Shown: one piece after another, positions 1 through 47,968 of the stretch
Numbering within the stretch: position 1 is the stretch's first letter
Layout of the letters: every line of letters starts with the position of its first letter
Source of the DNA: Aeromicrobium sp.
GTDB taxonomy: Bacteria; Actinomycetota; Actinomycetes; Propionibacteriales; Nocardioidaceae
Direction of reading: 5' to 3'
NCBI GenBank assembly: GCA_025965435.1
Contig: JAOPWZ010000116.1
Span: forward strand, 1 to 64,000
DNA: 64,000 nt
The notes under the pieces: generated by a model
What the model saw: only the letters and a program-made list of their open reading frames with translations
Databases searched by the model: none
What the model was told of the DNA's origin: nothing
Program-made: the position numbers and the translations under genes

Positions 1-1620
1 CGCGACGAGGACGTCGCCCACCAGCTGCGGGCGGAGTACTGCCTCAAGATCGTCGGCGAGGTCACCGCGCGCAAGGAGGGCAACGAGAACCCCAACCTCG
101 CGACCGGCGCCGTCGAGGTCGTGGCCTCCGAGGTCGAGGTCCTGAGCGCGGCGGCGCCGCTGCCGTTCCCGATCAGCGACCACGTCGACGTCGGCGAGGA
201 GGCGCGGCTCAAGCACCGCTACCTCGACCTGCGTCGCTCGGGCCCCAACGCCGCGCTGCGTCTGCGCTCGAAGGTCAACAAGGCCGCGCGCGACGTGCTC
301 GATGCGCACGAGTTCGTGGAGATCGAGACGCCGACCCTCACGCGCAGCACGCCCGAGGGTGCCCGCGACTTCCTGGTCCCCGCGCGCCTCCAGCCCGGCA
401 GCTGGTACGCCCTGCCCCAGAGCCCGCAGCTGTTCAAGCAGCTGCTGATGGTCGCCGGCATGGAGCGCTACTTCCAGATCGCCCGCTGCTACCGCGACGA
501 GGACTTCCGCGCCGACCGGCAGCCGGAGTTCACCCAGCTCGACATCGAGATGAGCTTCGTCGACCAGGCGGACGTCCTCGAGCTGATGGAGGGCATCCTC
601 AAGAAGATGTGGGCCCTCATCGGGTACGACATCCCGACCCCCATCCCGCACATGACGTACGCCGAGGCCATGCGTCGCTTCGGCTCCGACAAGCCCGACC
701 TGCGGATGGGCCAGGAGCTCGTCGAGTGCACCGAGTTCTTCAAGGACACCTCGTTCCGGGTGTTCCAGGCCGAGTACGTCGGCGCGGTCGTCATGCCCGG
801 CGGTGCCTCGCAGCCGCGTCGGCAGTTCGACGCCTGGCAGGAGTGGGCCAAGCAGCGCGGCGCCAAGGGCCTCGCGTACGTCACGATCTCCGAGGACGGC
901 GAGCTCGGCGGTCCGGTCGCCAAGAACCTGTCCGACGCCGAGCGCGCCGGACTGGCCGACCACGTCGGGGCGAAGCCGGGCGACTGCATCTTCTTCGGTG
1001 CCGGTGCGACCAAGTCGACCCGCGGTCTGCTCGGTGCGGCGCGCCTGGAGATCGGCCAGCGCTGCGACCTCATCGACCGGTCCGCGTGGGAGTTCGTCTG
1101 GATCGTGGACGCCCCGTTGTTCGAGCCGTCCGGCGACGCCGTCGCCTCCGGTGACGTGGCCGTCGGCGCCGGCGCCTGGACCGCGGTGCATCACGCGTTC
1201 ACCTCGCCGCAGGACATCGAGACGTTCGACACCGATCCCGGCAACGCGCTGGCCTGGGCCTACGACATCGTCTGCAACGGCAGCGAGCTGGGCGGCGGGT
1301 CGATCCGGATCCACCGCGAGGACATCCAGAAGCGGGTCTTCGCAATCATGGGCATCGAGGAGGACGAGGCGCAGGAGAAGTTCGGCTTCCTGCTCGACGC
1401 CTTCACCTTCGGCGCACCGCCGCACGGCGGCATCGCGGTCGGCATGGACCGGATCTGCGCGATGCTCGCCGGCGCGGACTCGATCCGTGAGGTCATCGCG
1501 TTCCCCAAGTCCGGTGGCGGCTACGACCCGCTGACGGCGGCTCCTGCCCCCATCACGGGCGAGCAGCGCCGCGACGCCGGCGTCGACTGGAAGCCCGAGG
1601 CCAAGAAGTCCGACGACTAG
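1..1620 (+). CDS. aspS: Aspartate--tRNA(Asp/Asn) ligase, 5'-truncated by window start
   Basis: Frame 1 is open from base 1; class II aaRS motifs ([42 protein letters not shown]). Confidence 0.97.
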
Positions 1621-1629
1621 GCTCGTCCC

Positions 1630-2994
1630 ATGAGCTCTGACGGACTGTTCGACATCCCGGACACTCCGCCGACGACGGGCAGCGGCGGAGGCAGCCTCAG
1701 CGGCAACACCCACGCCTCGGCGCCGCTGGCCGTCCGGATGCGGCCGCGGTCGCTGGACGAGCTCGTGGGCCAGCAGCACCTGCTGGCCCCCGGCTCGCCC
1801 CTGCGGCAGATGATCGACGGCAACCAGCCGCTGACGATCCTGCTGTGGGGCCCACCGGGAACCGGCAAGACGACGATCGCGAGCCTGCTCAGCGCTCACA
1901 CCGACCGCCGGTTCGTCGAGGTCTCGGCGGTGTCGGCGGGGGTCAAGGAGGTCCGCGAGACGATCGCCGGCGCCCGGCGCGCCCTGGCGCAGAGCGGCGT
2001 CGAGACCGTCCTGTTCGTCGACGAGGTCCACCGGTTCAGCAAGTCGCAGCAGGACGCACTGCTGCCCGGCGTGGAGAACCGCTGGGTGTCGCTCGTCGCC
2101 GCGACGACCGAGAACCCGCACTTCAGCGTCATCTCGCCGCTGCTGAGCCGCTCGCTGCTGCTGACCCTCGAGAGCCTGACCGACGACGACATCGGCGTGC
2201 TGGTCGACCGCGCACTGACCGACGAGCGTGGGCTGGCGGGCGTCGTGACGCTCACCGACGAGGCCAGGTCGCACCTCGTGCGGCTCGCCGGCGGTGACGG
2301 TCGCCGGGTGCTGACCTATCTGGAGGCGGCCGCCGGCGCCGCGACCAGCCAGGGCAAGGACGAGATCGACGTGGAGGACGCCGCGCTCGCGGTCGACAAG
2401 GCGGCGGTCCGCTACGACCGCCAGGGCGACCAGCACTACGACGTCATCAGCGCCTTCATCAAGTCGATCCGCGGATCGGACGTCGACGCCGCGCTGCACT
2501 ACCTGGCCCGGATGATCGAGGCGGGGGAGGATCCCCGCTTCATCGCGCGCCGGCTGATGATCCACGCGAGCGAGGACATCGGCATGGCTGATCCGACCGC
2601 GCTGCCGCTGGCCACGGCCACGGCGCAGGCCGTCGCGATGATCGGCTTCCCCGAGGCCCGCATCCCGCTGGCGCAGGCGGTCATCCACCTGGCCGCGGCG
2701 CCCAAGTCGAATGCGGTCATCGTCGCGATCGACGCGGCCATCGCCGACGTGCGGGCCGGCAAGGTCGGTGCGGTGCCGCCGGCGCTGCGCGACGCCCACT
2801 ACTCGGGCGCCAAGAAGCTGGGTCACGGCCACGACTACCAGTACCCGCACAACGACGTCCGCGGCGTCGTCGGACAGCAGTACGCCCCGGACGACGTCGA
2901 CGGCACGACGTACTTCGAGCCCGGCGAGCACGGCTTCGAGGCGCGCCTGAGCGAGCGGCTCGCCATCATCCGCAAGATCCTCCGCGACCGCTGA
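1630..2994 (+). CDS. rarA: Replication-associated recombination protein A (RarA/MgsA AAA+ ATPase)
   Basis: [15 protein letters not shown], Walker [41 protein letters not shown]. Confidence 0.96.
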
Positions 2995-15663: not shown

Positions 15664-15703
15664 ATGAGGGTTTGCGGTAGCAGGAGCGACCGCAAACCCT
15701 CAT
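15664..15703. terminator. Perfect 15-bp inverted repeat after nusB (hairpin, no U-tract)
   Basis: ATGAGGGTTTGCGGT - AGCAGGAGCG - ACCGCAAACCCTCAT. Confidence 0.6.
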
Positions 15704-43668: not shown

Positions 43669-44772
43669 GTGTCCGCCCCCAACTCCTCGTACGACCCGGT
43701 GGAGGTCACCCCTCTGCGATCCGACGAGATCGACCGCATGCGCGACGAGGCCCTCGCGGCGATCGCGGCGGCCGTCACGCTGGACGACCTCAAGCAGGTC
43801 CGCATCGACCATGTCGGTGACCGCTCGCCGATCGCCCTCGCCAACCGCGAGATCGGCGCGTTGCAGCCCCAGGCGCGCAAGGAGGCCGGCCAGCGGGTCG
43901 GTCAGGCCCGCGGCGCGATCAACCAGGCGCTCGCTGCGCGCACCGCCGAGCTGGAGGAGGCGGAGGAGCAGCAGGCGCTCGTCACCGAGGCCGTCGACGT
44001 CACCCTGCCGTGGGACGTCCAGCCGATCGGCGCCCGCCACCCCGTCACGACCCTGTCCGAGCACATCGCCGACATCTTCGTCGCGATGGGCTGGGAGATC
44101 GCCGAGGGCCCCGAGGTCGAGGCCGAGTGGCTCAACTTCGATGCGCTGAACCTCGGTCCCGATCATCCGGCGCGGACGATGCAGGACACGTTCTGGGTGA
44201 CGCCCGAGCGCGCGGCGATGGTGCTGCGCACCCACACGTCGCCGGTGCAGGCCCGCACGATGCTGACCCGCACGCCTCCCATCTACGTCGCGTGCCCCGG
44301 CCGGGTGTTCCGCACCGACGAGCTCGACGCGACCCACTCGCCGGTGTTCCACCAGGTCGAGGGCCTCGCGATCGACGAGGGCCTGTCGATGGCCCACCTC
44401 AAGGGCACGCTCGACCACTTCGCCCAGGCCATCTACGGCGACGGCATGACCACACGGTTCCGTCCGTCGTACTTCCCGTTCACCGAGCCGAGCGCCGAGA
44501 TGGACCTGCTCTGCTACGTGTGCCACAACGAGCCCGATGCCGTGGCGGCGTGCCGCACCTGCAAGGGCGAGGGCTGGGTCGAGTGGGGCGGTTGCGGGGT
44601 GGTCAATCCGCGGGTGCTGATCGCCTGTGGCATCGACCCGGAGCGGTACTCCGGCTTCGCCTTCGGCATCGGCATCGATCGCACCATCACGTCCCGCTAC
44701 GACATCGCCGACCTGCGCGACCTGTTCGACGGCGACATCCGTTTCACCGAACCGTTCGGAGTCGAGCTGTAA
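43669..44772 (+). CDS. pheS: Phenylalanine--tRNA ligase alpha subunit
   Basis: HPVTTLSEHIADIFVAMGWEIAEGPEVE, FWVTPERAAMVLRTHTSPVQARTML, GFAFGIGIDR. Confidence 0.97.
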   Translation: MSAPNSSYDPVEVTPLRSDEIDRMRDEALAAIAAAVTLDDLKQVRIDHVGDRSPIALANREIGALQPQARKEAGQRVGQARGAINQALAARTAELEEAEEQQALVTEAVDVTLPWDVQPIGARHPVTTLSEHIADIFVAMGWEIAEGPEVEAEWLNFDALNLGPDHPARTMQDTFWVTPERAAMVLRTHTSPVQARTMLTRTPPIYVACPGRVFRTDELDATHSPVFHQVEGLAIDEGLSMAHLKGTLDHFAQAIYGDGMTTRFRPSYFPFTEPSAEMDLLCYVCHNEPDAVAACRTCKGEGWVEWGGCGVVNPRVLIACGIDPERYSGFAFGIGIDRTITSRYDIADLRDLFDGDIRFTEPFGVEL

Positions 44773-47288
44773 TGAAGGTTCCTGTCTCCTGGCTCCGCCA
44801 GTACGTCGACCTGCCCGCCGACCTGTCCACGGTCGACCTCGCGGCCCGTCTGACGGCGTTCGACCTCAAGCTCGAGGAGATCGTCTCGTCGGGCATAAGC
44901 GGACCGCTCGTGGTCGGCCGCGTCCTGAACCTCGTCAAGGAGGAGCAGAAGAACGGCAAGACGATCAACTGGTGCCGGGTCGACGTCGGTGCGCACAACG
45001 ATCCGTCCGTTCCCGACGCCCCGGGCGAGGACGTCCCGTCACGCGGCATCGTCTGCGGGGCGCACAACTTCGTCGAGGGCGACCTGGTGGTCGTCTCGCT
45101 GCCCGGCACGGTGCTGCCCGCCCTGGGATTCGAGATCTCGGCGCGCAAGACGTACGGGCACGTGTCCGACGGCATGATCTGCTCGTCCGCCGAGCTCGGG
45201 CTGCCCGGAGATGCGAGCGGCATCATCGTGCTCGAGCCCGGCTCCGCGGCCCCCGGCGACGACGCGATCGCGCTGCTGGGCCTGGGGGAGGAGGTCCTCG
45301 ATCTCGAGGTCAACCCCGACCGTGCCTATGCGCTGTCGCTGCGCGGCGTCGCCCGCGACGCCGCGATCGCGTTCGGCGTGCCGTTCCACGACCCGGCGGA
45401 CGTCGAGGCCGAGACGGTCGCGACTGCCGGTCCGGGCGCGTACCCGGTGCAGGTGCAGGACCCCACGGCCTGCCCGGTGTTCGCCGCGCTGACGGTGACC
45501 GGTGTGGATCCCTCCGCCGTCACGCCCCCGTGGCTGGCGCAGCGCATCGAGCTGGCCGGCATGCGGTCGATCTCGTTGGCCGTCGATGTGACGAACTACG
45601 TCATGCTCGAGCTCGGCTTTCCGATCCACGGCTACGACCGCTCCCTCCTCAAGGGCCCGCTGGTCGTCCGTCGCGCGTCCGACGGCGAGAAGCTCACGAC
45701 GCTGGACGGTGTCACCCGCACGCTGACCGCCGAGGACGCCGTCGTCACCGACGACCGCGGCCCGGTGGGTCTCGGCGGTGTCATGGGCGGCGAGGAGGTC
45801 GAGATGACGTCCACGACGACCGATGTCGTGATCGAGGCGGCCGTGTGGACCGCGCCGATGATTGCCCGCACCGCCCGGACCCAGCGCCTGACGTCGGAGG
45901 CGGCGAAGCGCAACGAGCGGGGCGTCGACCCGACCCTGCCCGCCCACGCCGCGCGTCGCGTCGCCGATCTGCTCGTCGAGCACGGCGGTGGCACGTTGGA
46001 GGACGGCCTCACGCTGATCGGTGAGGCCCCCGTGCCTGCCGACATCGTCCTGCGGGCCGATCTGTCGGCTCGGGTCACCGGTGTCGACATCGACACGATC
46101 GCTGCGGTGGAGGCCCTCGAGGCCAATGGCTGCGCGGTCGAGGTCGACCACGACTGGCTGACCGTCACGCCGCCCCCGTGGCGACCCGACCTGACCGATC
46201 CGTACGACGTCGTCGAGGACGTCCTGCGCGTCGTCGGCTACGACCAGGTGCCGTCGGTCATCCCCGTGGCCCCGGCGGGGCGCGGACTGAGCGTGGCCCA
46301 GAAGCTGCGCCGCCGGGCGGGCAACATCCTGGCCGGCGAGGGACTCGTCGAGGTCAAGACCTTCCCGTTCGCCGGTCCGGCCGACTGGGACCGCATGGGC
46401 CTGCCGGCCGACGACGTCCGCCGTCGGCAGGTGCTGCTGGAGAACCCGCTGTCCGCGGAGGAGCCCGGCCTGACCACGACCCTGCTGTCGGGCCTGCTCC
46501 GCAGCCTGGTGCTGAACATCGGGCGCGGGCACGCCGACGTCCACATCACCGAGACGGGACGCGTCTTCCTCCCGCAGGCCGTCGAGGCGGAGGCACCGAT
46601 CTACGGGGTCGACCGGCGTCCGACGGTCGAGGAGCTCGACGCGTTCGCGGCGGTCCTGCCGCACCAGCCGTATCACGTGGGCCTCGTCATGAGCGGCGAA
46701 CGTGTGCGCTCCGGGTGGGCCGGCGCCGGTCGCCCCGTCACCTGGGCCGATGCCGTGGCGGTCGTGCGCCACCTCGCGACGGCGCTGCACGTCGACATCG
46801 AGGTCGAGGCCGCTGACCAGGCGCCGTGGCATCCGGGCCGGTGCGCCGCGATCGTCCTCGACGGCGTCACGATCGGTCATGCCGGTGAGCTGCACCCGCG
46901 GGTGCTCAAGGCCTACGGCCTGCCGCCGCGGGTCGTCGCGGCGGAGGTCGACCTCGACGCCCTCATCGCGGCGTCGCCGGCCGTCGGTCCGCGTCCGGAC
47001 TTCTCGGCGTACCCCGTGGCCAAGGAGGACCTGGCCCTGGTCGTCGACGTCTCGGCCGCTGCCGGCCCGCTGGCGACGACGCTGGCCTCGTCCAGCCCGC
47101 TGATCGAGTCGGCGCGGCTGTTCGACGTCTACACCGGTGAGCAGGTGGCCGAGGGCAAGAAGTCGCTGGCGTTCGCGCTGCGTCTGCGGGCTCCCGACCG
47201 CACCCTGACCGACGAGGACATCAAGGGCGCCCGCGAGGCCGCGGTCAGTGCAGCGGCCTCGCAGCACGGAGCCACCCTCCGCACCTGA
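44772..47288 (+). CDS. pheT: Phenylalanine--tRNA ligase beta subunit
   Basis: MKVPVSWLRQYVDLPADLSTVDLAARLTAFDLKLEEI; tRNA-binding, B5 and FDX-ACB-like regions. Confidence 0.97.
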   Translation: MKVPVSWLRQYVDLPADLSTVDLAARLTAFDLKLEEIVSSGISGPLVVGRVLNLVKEEQKNGKTINWCRVDVGAHNDPSVPDAPGEDVPSRGIVCGAHNFVEGDLVVVSLPGTVLPALGFEISARKTYGHVSDGMICSSAELGLPGDASGIIVLEPGSAAPGDDAIALLGLGEEVLDLEVNPDRAYALSLRGVARDAAIAFGVPFHDPADVEAETVATAGPGAYPVQVQDPTACPVFAALTVTGVDPSAVTPPWLAQRIELAGMRSISLAVDVTNYVMLELGFPIHGYDRSLLKGPLVVRRASDGEKLTTLDGVTRTLTAEDAVVTDDRGPVGLGGVMGGEEVEMTSTTTDVVIEAAVWTAPMIARTARTQRLTSEAAKRNERGVDPTLPAHAARRVADLLVEHGGGTLEDGLTLIGEAPVPADIVLRADLSARVTGVDIDTIAAVEALEANGCAVEVDHDWLTVTPPPWRPDLTDPYDVVEDVLRVVGYDQVPSVIPVAPAGRGLSVAQKLRRRAGNILAGEGLVEVKTFPFAGPADWDRMGLPADDVRRRQVLLENPLSAEEPGLTTTLLSGLLRSLVLNIGRGHADVHITETGRVFLPQAVEAEAPIYGVDRRPTVEELDAFAAVLPHQPYHVGLVMSGERVRSGWAGAGRPVTWADAVAVVRHLATALHVDIEVEAADQAPWHPGRCAAIVLDGVTIGHAGELHPRVLKAYGLPPRVVAAEVDLDALIAASPAVGPRPDFSAYPVAKEDLALVVDVSAAAGPLATTLASSSPLIESARLFDVYTGEQVAEGKKSLAFALRLRAPDRTLTDEDIKGAREAAVSAAASQHGATLRT

Positions 47289-47300
47289 GCCGCAACCCAA

Positions 47301-47397
47301 CGCTGACGGGTCACTTCTGGCCCCACGACGGGTCACTTCTGTCTCCTGCGGGGGGCCAGCATCGACCCCTCAGGGGGCCAGAAGTGACCCGTCAGCG
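47301..47397. repeat. Nested inverted/direct repeat with perfect 24-bp outer arms, at convergent pheT/lemA junction
   Basis: CGCTGACGGGTCACTTCTGGCCCC (47301-47324) and its exact reverse complement (47374-47397), with two further degenerate copies between. Confidence 0.85.
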
Positions 47398-47407
47398 ATC
47401 GGGGGCT

Positions 47408-47968
47408 CTAGAAGGTGACGGTGGGGGCGGTCTCCTGGCCCTCGGGGGCGTTGTAGAACTCGCGGGCCTTCACGCCGGCGACACCGGTGAACAGCAGCCA
47501 GGGGATCGTCTGGACGATCTTGTTGAGCGACGCCACTGCGTCGTTGTAGTACTGGCGCGCGAACGAGATCTTGTTCTCGGTGTCGGAGAGCTCCTTCTGC
47601 AGCTCCAGGAAGTTCGTGGACGCCTTGAGGTCGGGGTAGGCCTCGGCGACGGCCAGGACGTCGACGATGGCCCGGTCGAGCTGGGCCTGCGCGGCGGCCT
47701 TCTCCGGCACGGTGCCGTTGTCGGCAGCGGCCTTGACGGCCGTGCGCGCCCGCGTCACCTCCTCGAACACCCCGCGCTCGTGCTGGGCGTAGCCCTTGAC
47801 GGTGTTGACGAGGTTCGGGATCAGGTCGGCGCGACGGGTCAGCTGCACGTCGATGCCACCGAGCGCCTCCTGCGCACCGATGTCGAGGCGGCGCAGCTTG
47901 TTGAAGGCGTAGGCGGCGAACAGCGCCACCAGGACGATGATGCCGACGATGGACAGAAGAACGACCAT
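47408..47968 (-). CDS. lemA: LemA family protein
   Basis: Single TM then FNKLRRLDIGAQEALGGIDVQLTRRADLIPNLVNTVKGYAQHERGVFEEVTRARTA. Confidence 0.95.
   Translation of the reverse strand: MVVLLSIVGIIVLVALFAAYAFNKLRRLDIGAQEALGGIDVQLTRRADLIPNLVNTVKGYAQHERGVFEEVTRARTAVKAAADNGTVPEKAAAQAQLDRAIVDVLAVAEAYPDLKASTNFLELQKELSDTENKISFARQYYNDAVASLNKIVQTIPWLLFTGVAGVKAREFYNAPEGQETAPTVTF

Follow-up and report, generated by a model that had tools for sequence, protein, structure and literature searches.

In the gap between the convergent pheT and lemA genes of an Aeromicrobium genome, we uncovered a 97-bp nested palindrome, which we interpret, with a probability of about 0.6, as belonging to a REP/REPIN-like family of tandem-inverted repeats that is dispersed over gene 3′ ends and in which a nuclease substitutes for the Y1 transposase. 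The element, which was identified in a window of 64,000 nucleotides (the whole stretch of DNA that was analyzed), comprises two 22-nt units per side (Table 1). As originally predicted, its 24-bp outer arms are perfect reverse complements, the base pair beyond them being a mismatch, and a second forward copy is present near 47327, namely GACGGGTCACTTCTGTCTCC (47327–47346), which matches the first copy at 18 of 20 positions with a step of 22. The second reverse copy, which the same prediction had placed at 47352–47374, likewise exists; however, it starts at 47351, and divergence of the inner arms is evident, this copy showing 82% identity to the adjacent outer one, again with a step of 22. The nested palindrome is far beyond chance: when folded as RNA, its two strands reach −84.4 and −86.5 kcal/mol versus approximately −48 for shuffled sequences (z of −9.6 and −10.7), and none of 200 shuffles is equally stable.

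Table 1. Positions of the pheT/lemA element, its neighbors and the copies of two further palindrome families (P1 and P2) in the same genome.
Feature	Sequence	Position	Strand	Description
Whole tandem-inverted element	window	47301..47397		(+)(+)(-)(-), framed CGCTGACG...CGTCAGCG; folds; same architecture in orthologous slots of relatives
Outer left arm	window	47301..47324	+	24 bp, CGCTGACGGGTCACTTCTGGCCCC, perfectly complementary to 47374-47397
Outer right arm	window	47374..47397	-	24 bp
Forward unit 1	window	47305..47326	+	22 nt, GACGGGTCACTTCTGGCCCCAC
Forward unit 2	window	47327..47348	+	22 nt, GACGGGTCACTTCTGTCTCCTG
Reverse unit 2	window	47351..47372	-	22 nt, diverged, GGGGGCCAGCATCGACCCCTCA
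Reverse unit 1	window	47373..47394	-	22 nt
pheT, phenylalanyl-tRNA synthetase beta chain	window	44772..47288	+	upstream, convergent; Pfam B3_4, tRNA_synthFbeta, FDX-ACB
lemA	window	47408..47968	-	downstream, convergent; Pfam LemA 4e-53
P2, five sites	L168; L201; L237; L257; L270	11137; 1124; 14788; 2047; 10139		
P2 around paralogue	L441 (C144)	1335-2581		arms 1230 nt apart, AbiEi/DUF559-like paralogue inside
P1 copies	L171; L194; L195; L234; L237	8036; 2339; 9459; 2297; 17783		
P1 copies (continued)	L240; L249; L252; L273	8589 and 11530; 9743; 3993; 3189		

Comparison of the pheT/lemA gap across relatives shows that the site and the frame (GCTGACG...CGTCAGC) are conserved, with the unit itself being replaced: GACGCGTGGGTTGCG units occupy it in G033, G008, G034, G043 and G013, GAGGGGGTACTTGTCGCCC units in G003, GACGAGGGGGTTGGCGCCCC in G044 and GACGAGACCGTTACCGCCCC in G038. 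In G023, a GACGGGTCACTTATTGCC array lies 3′ of pheT, with lemA not immediately adjacent, and in some remoter members the slot holds ordinary hairpins (L089, L091, L100, L101) or, in others, there is nearly no gap. Numerous array sites have orthologous counterparts in other genomes, and three elements of the present genome sit in gene pairs that bear GCGTGGGTT arrays in relatives. A second slot, between gcvP and a hydrolase gene, was surveyed unconditionally, i.e., regardless of the presence of an array: arrays with differing units were found in G000 (the present genome), G003, G034, G043, G020, G029, G038 and G012, a one-armed version in G023 and another short palindrome in G035, and the array is absent in many others; the emptiness of this slot in several relatives means that the hairpin is dispensable there. 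The G035 occupant (L389) is the short dispersed palindrome CCTTGAGCTTGTCGAAAGG, which we also observed on contigs of the present genome (L256 103, L231 397, L255 506 and 10328, L257 8336).

The letters of the units thus follow the genome and not the site, forming concerted “dialects”. Over the 13 variable nucleotides of the unit, identity is 0.78 between different slots of one genome and 0.40 between different dialects at the same slot, with unrelated pairs standing at 50%, and a difference of this size between same-genome and same-slot identity was reached in none of 2000 permutations. Sites in the five GCGTGGGTT genomes had been sampled via GCGTGGGTT itself; upon repeating the comparison without these genomes, the values are 74% versus 57%. 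At a single site, the left arm resembles the right arm (0.87) only a little more than arms taken from different sites of one genome resemble each other (0.83), from which it follows that the homogenization acts genome-wide. Two dialects each are found in G023 and G020, so that the correspondence of unit and nuclease-like gene (see below) is not strictly one-to-one.

This behavior also bears on the copy number of the window's own unit. The exact core GGGTCACTTCTG occurs at this locus only in the 2.15-Mb assembly (58.8% complete), and none of 98 relatives contains the 15-mer GACGGGTCACTTCTG. When 257 Gb of genomes were scanned with a 16-mer of the unit, 66 scattered single matches were obtained, none with a tandem partner, which is consistent with chance; similarly, there were eight isolated 16-mer matches in viral contigs, one partial 31-base match (E of 1) in plasmids and no match in phages. 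Searches against Rfam returned for the element only hits below threshold, namely plant-miRNA hairpin look-alikes and one snoRNA match, and nothing at gathering score for the arrays of relatives. The original prediction had treated the number of copies as a gauge of dispersal, and by that measure the exact sequence is confined to a single locus in the assembly, yet the element is not unique, as same-frame elements occur elsewhere in the genome and in the corresponding slots of relatives. A test by exact sequence is misleading here because the letters of the unit vary from site to site and are exchanged as a whole from one species to the next, with the frame and the sites being retained.

In the present genome, 1.16 Mb of whose 2.15-Mb assembly was surveyed for palindromes, we identified three further elements of the same frame (L184 7591-7685, L261 17467-17577 and L340, the last being contig C99 6609-6705) and a less certain one at a contig edge (L255). 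Another contig of this genome, L274 (positions 1-1278; G000:C90), starts inside an array with GAGTCACGTACG units that adjoins a paralogue of the nuclease-like gene described below. Arrays seem to break the assembly, and the copy numbers for this genome are to be read as lower bounds. The dispersal is also seen in relatives: allowing up to one mismatch, TGACGCGTGGGTTGCG is matched 122 times in G043, 96 in G034, 47 in G013, 31 in G033 and 17 in G008; four further genomes have no more than two matches each, and the other 40, the present one among them, have none. We read 73 arrays from the five genomes rich in this sequence and found the (+)n(-)m pattern in 47 of them. The arrays of the genus are framed GCTGACG...CGTCAGC, and their units measure precisely 21 or 22 nt; the same-strand step is 21 nt in three of the five genomes and 22 nt in two, with almost no exceptions. 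Most array ends are no farther than about 25 nt from a stop codon, and, among the 72 arrays with both neighbors known, 45 are in convergent gaps, 26 are co-directional and one was called divergent. For this last case (L206), the full gene list has a plus-strand gene ending there, so that it is probably a 3′-end site too. Against a background of 77 convergent cases among the 611 gaps measuring 20 nt or longer in 1.16 Mb of this genome, the convergent excess is pronounced (Fisher p of approximately 1e-19).

The common thread connecting these arrays to a protein emerges from the relA slot, where, in several genomes, a gene of about 310 codons, coding for a nuclease-like protein, separates the plus from the minus arms; the neighbors at one such slot are relA and a DUF349-like gene. 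Across the genus, within which bracketing was assessed, 24 of 29 homologues of this gene are bracketed by inverted repeats (score of at least 15), against none of 273 control genes of similar size from the present genome. The 29 homologues occupy about 12 slots, with 15 of them belonging to a single orthologous slot. Viewed from the side of the repeats, five of 57 genes at array loci are bracketed and four of these five are the nuclease-like gene; the fifth, lying between (+) and (-) arrays in G034 (L209 1518-3000), codes for a nitrilase. Moreover, the units flanking the relA-slot gene match the other arrays of their own genome (0.75) better than those of other genomes (0.55, with one dialect collapsed), a correspondence reached in five of 20,000 permutations. 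Paralogues that share 30% identity lie between palindromes of an entirely different kind, and at 20 further paralogue loci most, albeit not all, are clearly flanked. Hence, the repeat families appear to be paired, each with its own nuclease-like gene placed between two copies. A profile search detects the family in 58 of 59 genomes, which were drawn from the order and the genus. In G027, arrays of the GCTGACG frame are present and a close paralogue is absent. In the present genome, the flanking unit of one paralogue (C90), GAGTCACGTACG, is related to but unlike that of the window; a paralogue cognate to the window's unit was not found in the incomplete assembly, and we predict that a paralogue at the relA slot of this genome, if present, would be flanked by GACGGGTCACTTNTGGCCC units.

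Two palindrome families associated with distant paralogues are themselves dispersed in the genomes that carry those paralogues, one of them being in the present genome. The first, the GATGTGTAGCGKT palindrome around the G040 paralogue, has 18 matches in G040, 11 in G007, seven in G017 and seven in G041, a single match in each of two other genomes and none in 43, with no control matches. It was read beside a paralogue in the fetched loci of G040, G017 and G007; in G041, judging by coordinates alone, a match at 2419734 and the paralogue at 2419955-2420722 are separated by about 220 bp. The second, P2 (GGTTTCCCATGAGGCC), is dispersed in the present genome: at five sites its arms are separated by 72 nt, and a further pair of arms encloses a paralogue (Table 1).

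Beyond these, we noted other palindromes of the same genome. P1 (CCCGCTGAGTGTGACGTTT) has arms at a constant spacing, spans about 68 bp with a variable middle and is present as ten paired copies in 1.16 Mb; a partner gene was not found within that surveyed portion. P3 (CGGTTTACCACGCTGGCA, 90 bp) occurs at L189 18866, L195 13981 and L248 4064, and palindromes similar to it bracket paralogues in G034 (L445) and G020 (L459). Tandem-inverted palindromes with CCGCGAGTGGTGCAA units form a further family of similar design (L177 9117-9202; L184 12338-12425), and a possible dispersed palindrome, (C)ATGAGGGT..GGTAGC..ACCCTCAT, lies at 15664-15703 of the window and at L199 3653-3692 and L278 3476-3590.

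A straightforward interpretation of the element would be that of a plain two-way terminator, i.e., a hairpin maintained by selection in the gap of a convergent gene pair and lengthened through tandem slippage, with the nuclease gene as a passenger. It is indeed a GC-rich hairpin immediately following the stop codons, and the abutment of arrays on stop codons, their preference for convergent gaps, the very stable folds, the above-mentioned ordinary hairpins in the pheT/lemA slot of some distant relatives and the occurrence of a short hairpin in place of one array in this genome (L189) all agree with it. However, this interpretation leaves unexplained both why unrelated sites of one genome share a unit that differs at orthologous sites between sister species and why a single protein family is so consistently bracketed; the emptiness of the gcvP slot in several relatives and the lack of a U-tract past the stem on either strand (ATCGGGGGCT on the plus, TTGGGTTGCG on the minus) also speak against it, and we regard it as unlikely. 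As for the original reading of a bidirectional terminator made from a dispersed palindromic unit, the dispersal and the 3′-end position are borne out, but termination itself is not, given the missing U-tract and the slot that is empty in several relatives. Judging from sequence and position, the hairpins are probably two-way 3′-end elements that might act in termination, in the protection of mRNA 3′ ends or in both.

The protein offers clues as to how such units might be recognized. In an alignment of 26 members, E202, R206, P217, D234, E245, D247 and G248 (L411 numbering) are invariant. Searches with single members against Pfam (E up to 0.1) recovered MTES_1575 (REase) for 19 of the 26, AbiEi_4 for 17, DUF559 for 11 and AbiEi_1 for eight, and three of the 26 matched TIGR00632 vsr. 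In Foldseek searches with an AlphaFold2 model (mean pLDDT 90), the sole significant match among solved structures was AbiEi (6y8q, E of 1.2e-5), and viral DUF559 proteins were matched at an E of 3e-5. The catalytic domain of I-Bth0305I aligned with a TM score of 0.70 over 100 columns (on target), with a Foldseek E of about 1 and a profile E of 0.016, and the Vsr fold gave a TM score of 0.49 on target with a non-significant E-value. From these, we infer an N-terminal AbiEi-like DNA-binding part and a C-terminal Vsr/DUF559-like putative nuclease part, with the model fold and the conserved acidic residues E202, D234, E245 and D247 fitting a nuclease of the Vsr/DUF559 (PD-(D/E)XK-like) type.

AbiEi and its Mycobacterium tuberculosis homologue Rv2827c bind 23-bp inverted repeats, in pairs, in their own promoters (PMC7319586). 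The closeness of that length to the 21–22-nt units suggests that the latter are likewise binding sites. Unlike in these type IV antitoxins, to which the best structural match of the model belongs, the antitoxin domain is here replaced by the nuclease-like C-terminal part, and among the flanking genes read by eye no AbiEii-type toxin was noted adjacent. The same precedent would accommodate a regulon in which an AbiEi-like repressor controls itself via the repeats, with the dispersed copies being regulatory or chromosome-organizing, and the 21–22-nt steps would suit cooperative binding along one face of the DNA. We consider this improbable, as the arrays are at 3′ ends, with only the one array called divergent, and lie on both sides of the gene, beyond promoters; furthermore, the nuclease-like fold and its invariant acidic residues are retained, and replacement of the unit across a whole genome would be unusual for operators. 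The C-terminal part has a weak match in sequence and shape to Vsr and the EDxHD homing endonucleases, such as I-Bth0305I; those homing enzymes are associated with introns or inteins, whereas the putative nuclease here lies between palindromes at gene ends.

Hence, we propose that a dedicated protein, whose gene lies elsewhere in these genomes, binds the 21–22-nt units and would cut or nick at them or at the hairpins extruded from them. Repair or copying from other copies could then spread the units and expand or shrink the arrays, and a new unit might thereby replace an old one at existing sites, giving rise to genome-wide dialects. When transcribed, the copies would fold on both strands into very stable hairpins that may function as two-way 3′-end elements. 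Neither target-site duplications nor a fresh insertion were found, the flanks of empty and full gcvP slots being too diverged to read. More tentatively, one might conceive of a selfish or domesticated element, in which the Vsr/DUF559-type nuclease copies its cognate palindromes and overwrites rival dialects in a gene-drive-like sweep. If so, the hairpins at the terminator sites of a genome would be rewritten together whenever the specificity of the nuclease changes.

Transposon ends of the IS21 and Tn7 type also carry tandem inverted transposase sites of about 20–24 bp, and the arrays could in principle be miniature versions of such elements. An IS21-type helper locus is present in the genus (L360), with one flank bearing tandem end units of about 24 nt and the opposite flank an inverted copy. 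However, its ends differ in sequence from the arrays, clear IS21 helpers are found in just one of 49 genomes over the cut-off against the wide spread of the arrays, and the bracketed genes are nuclease-like rather than coding for DDE transposases, all of which renders this origin highly improbable. Mobilization of the arrays as REPINs by RAYT (Y1 tyrosine) transposases would likewise give dispersed palindrome pairs beside gene 3′ ends (PMC3733652). This identity can be all but excluded, as both the defining enzyme and the tag are missing: PF01797 is found in none of 49 genomes of the genus, the same search being positive in five of 14 control genomes, and the GTAG tag is absent.

Placed among known repeat systems, the family of dispersed arrays paired with a nuclease-like gene recalls the DNA uptake sequences of Neisseriaceae, short repeats that form inverted terminator pairs and whose letters vary by species around a fixed core. 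The arrays differ from these in their far fewer copies, their greater tandem length and the bracketed nuclease-like gene. The closest parallel is with the REP/REPIN–RAYT systems (REPtrons), which also consist of dispersed inverted pairs near gene 3′ ends, favor convergent gaps, include a dedicated gene flanked by its own repeats and occur as several families per genome (PMC3733652). Yet, where those have a GTAG (or CGTC) tag outside a short stem, the present arrays are tandem-inverted, are made of 21–22-nt units without a GTAG tag and have the GCTGACG/CGTCAGC frame inside a long stem; their flanked gene, with its AbiEi-like and Vsr/DUF559-like parts, belongs to another protein family than Y1. 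The CGTC-tagged REPs, stem-loops of 8–9 bp known from five phyla with actinobacteria not among them, were reported without a dedicated enzyme, leaving RAYT as the known enzyme of just one class of REP palindromes (PMC3733652). They, too, are dispersed 3′-end palindromes, and the units described here end in CGTC(A); by their description, they are set apart by the location of GACG/CGTC within a long stem in our arrays.

In the open-access papers searched, we found neither a link of DUF559, Vsr or AbiEi–DUF559 proteins to dispersed palindromes nor an earlier description of one. REP-type palindromes are among the commonest repeats of bacteria, and here an unrelated and widespread nuclease-like family is bracketed by distinct palindrome families, a pairing that looks like a new type of enzyme for bacterial palindromic repeats. 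It predicts that each paralogue would bind its own 21–22-nt unit and that a change of paralogue would alter which repeats spread. The arrays also present a natural case of dispersed gene-end hairpins that change in concert at orthologous sites between sister species.
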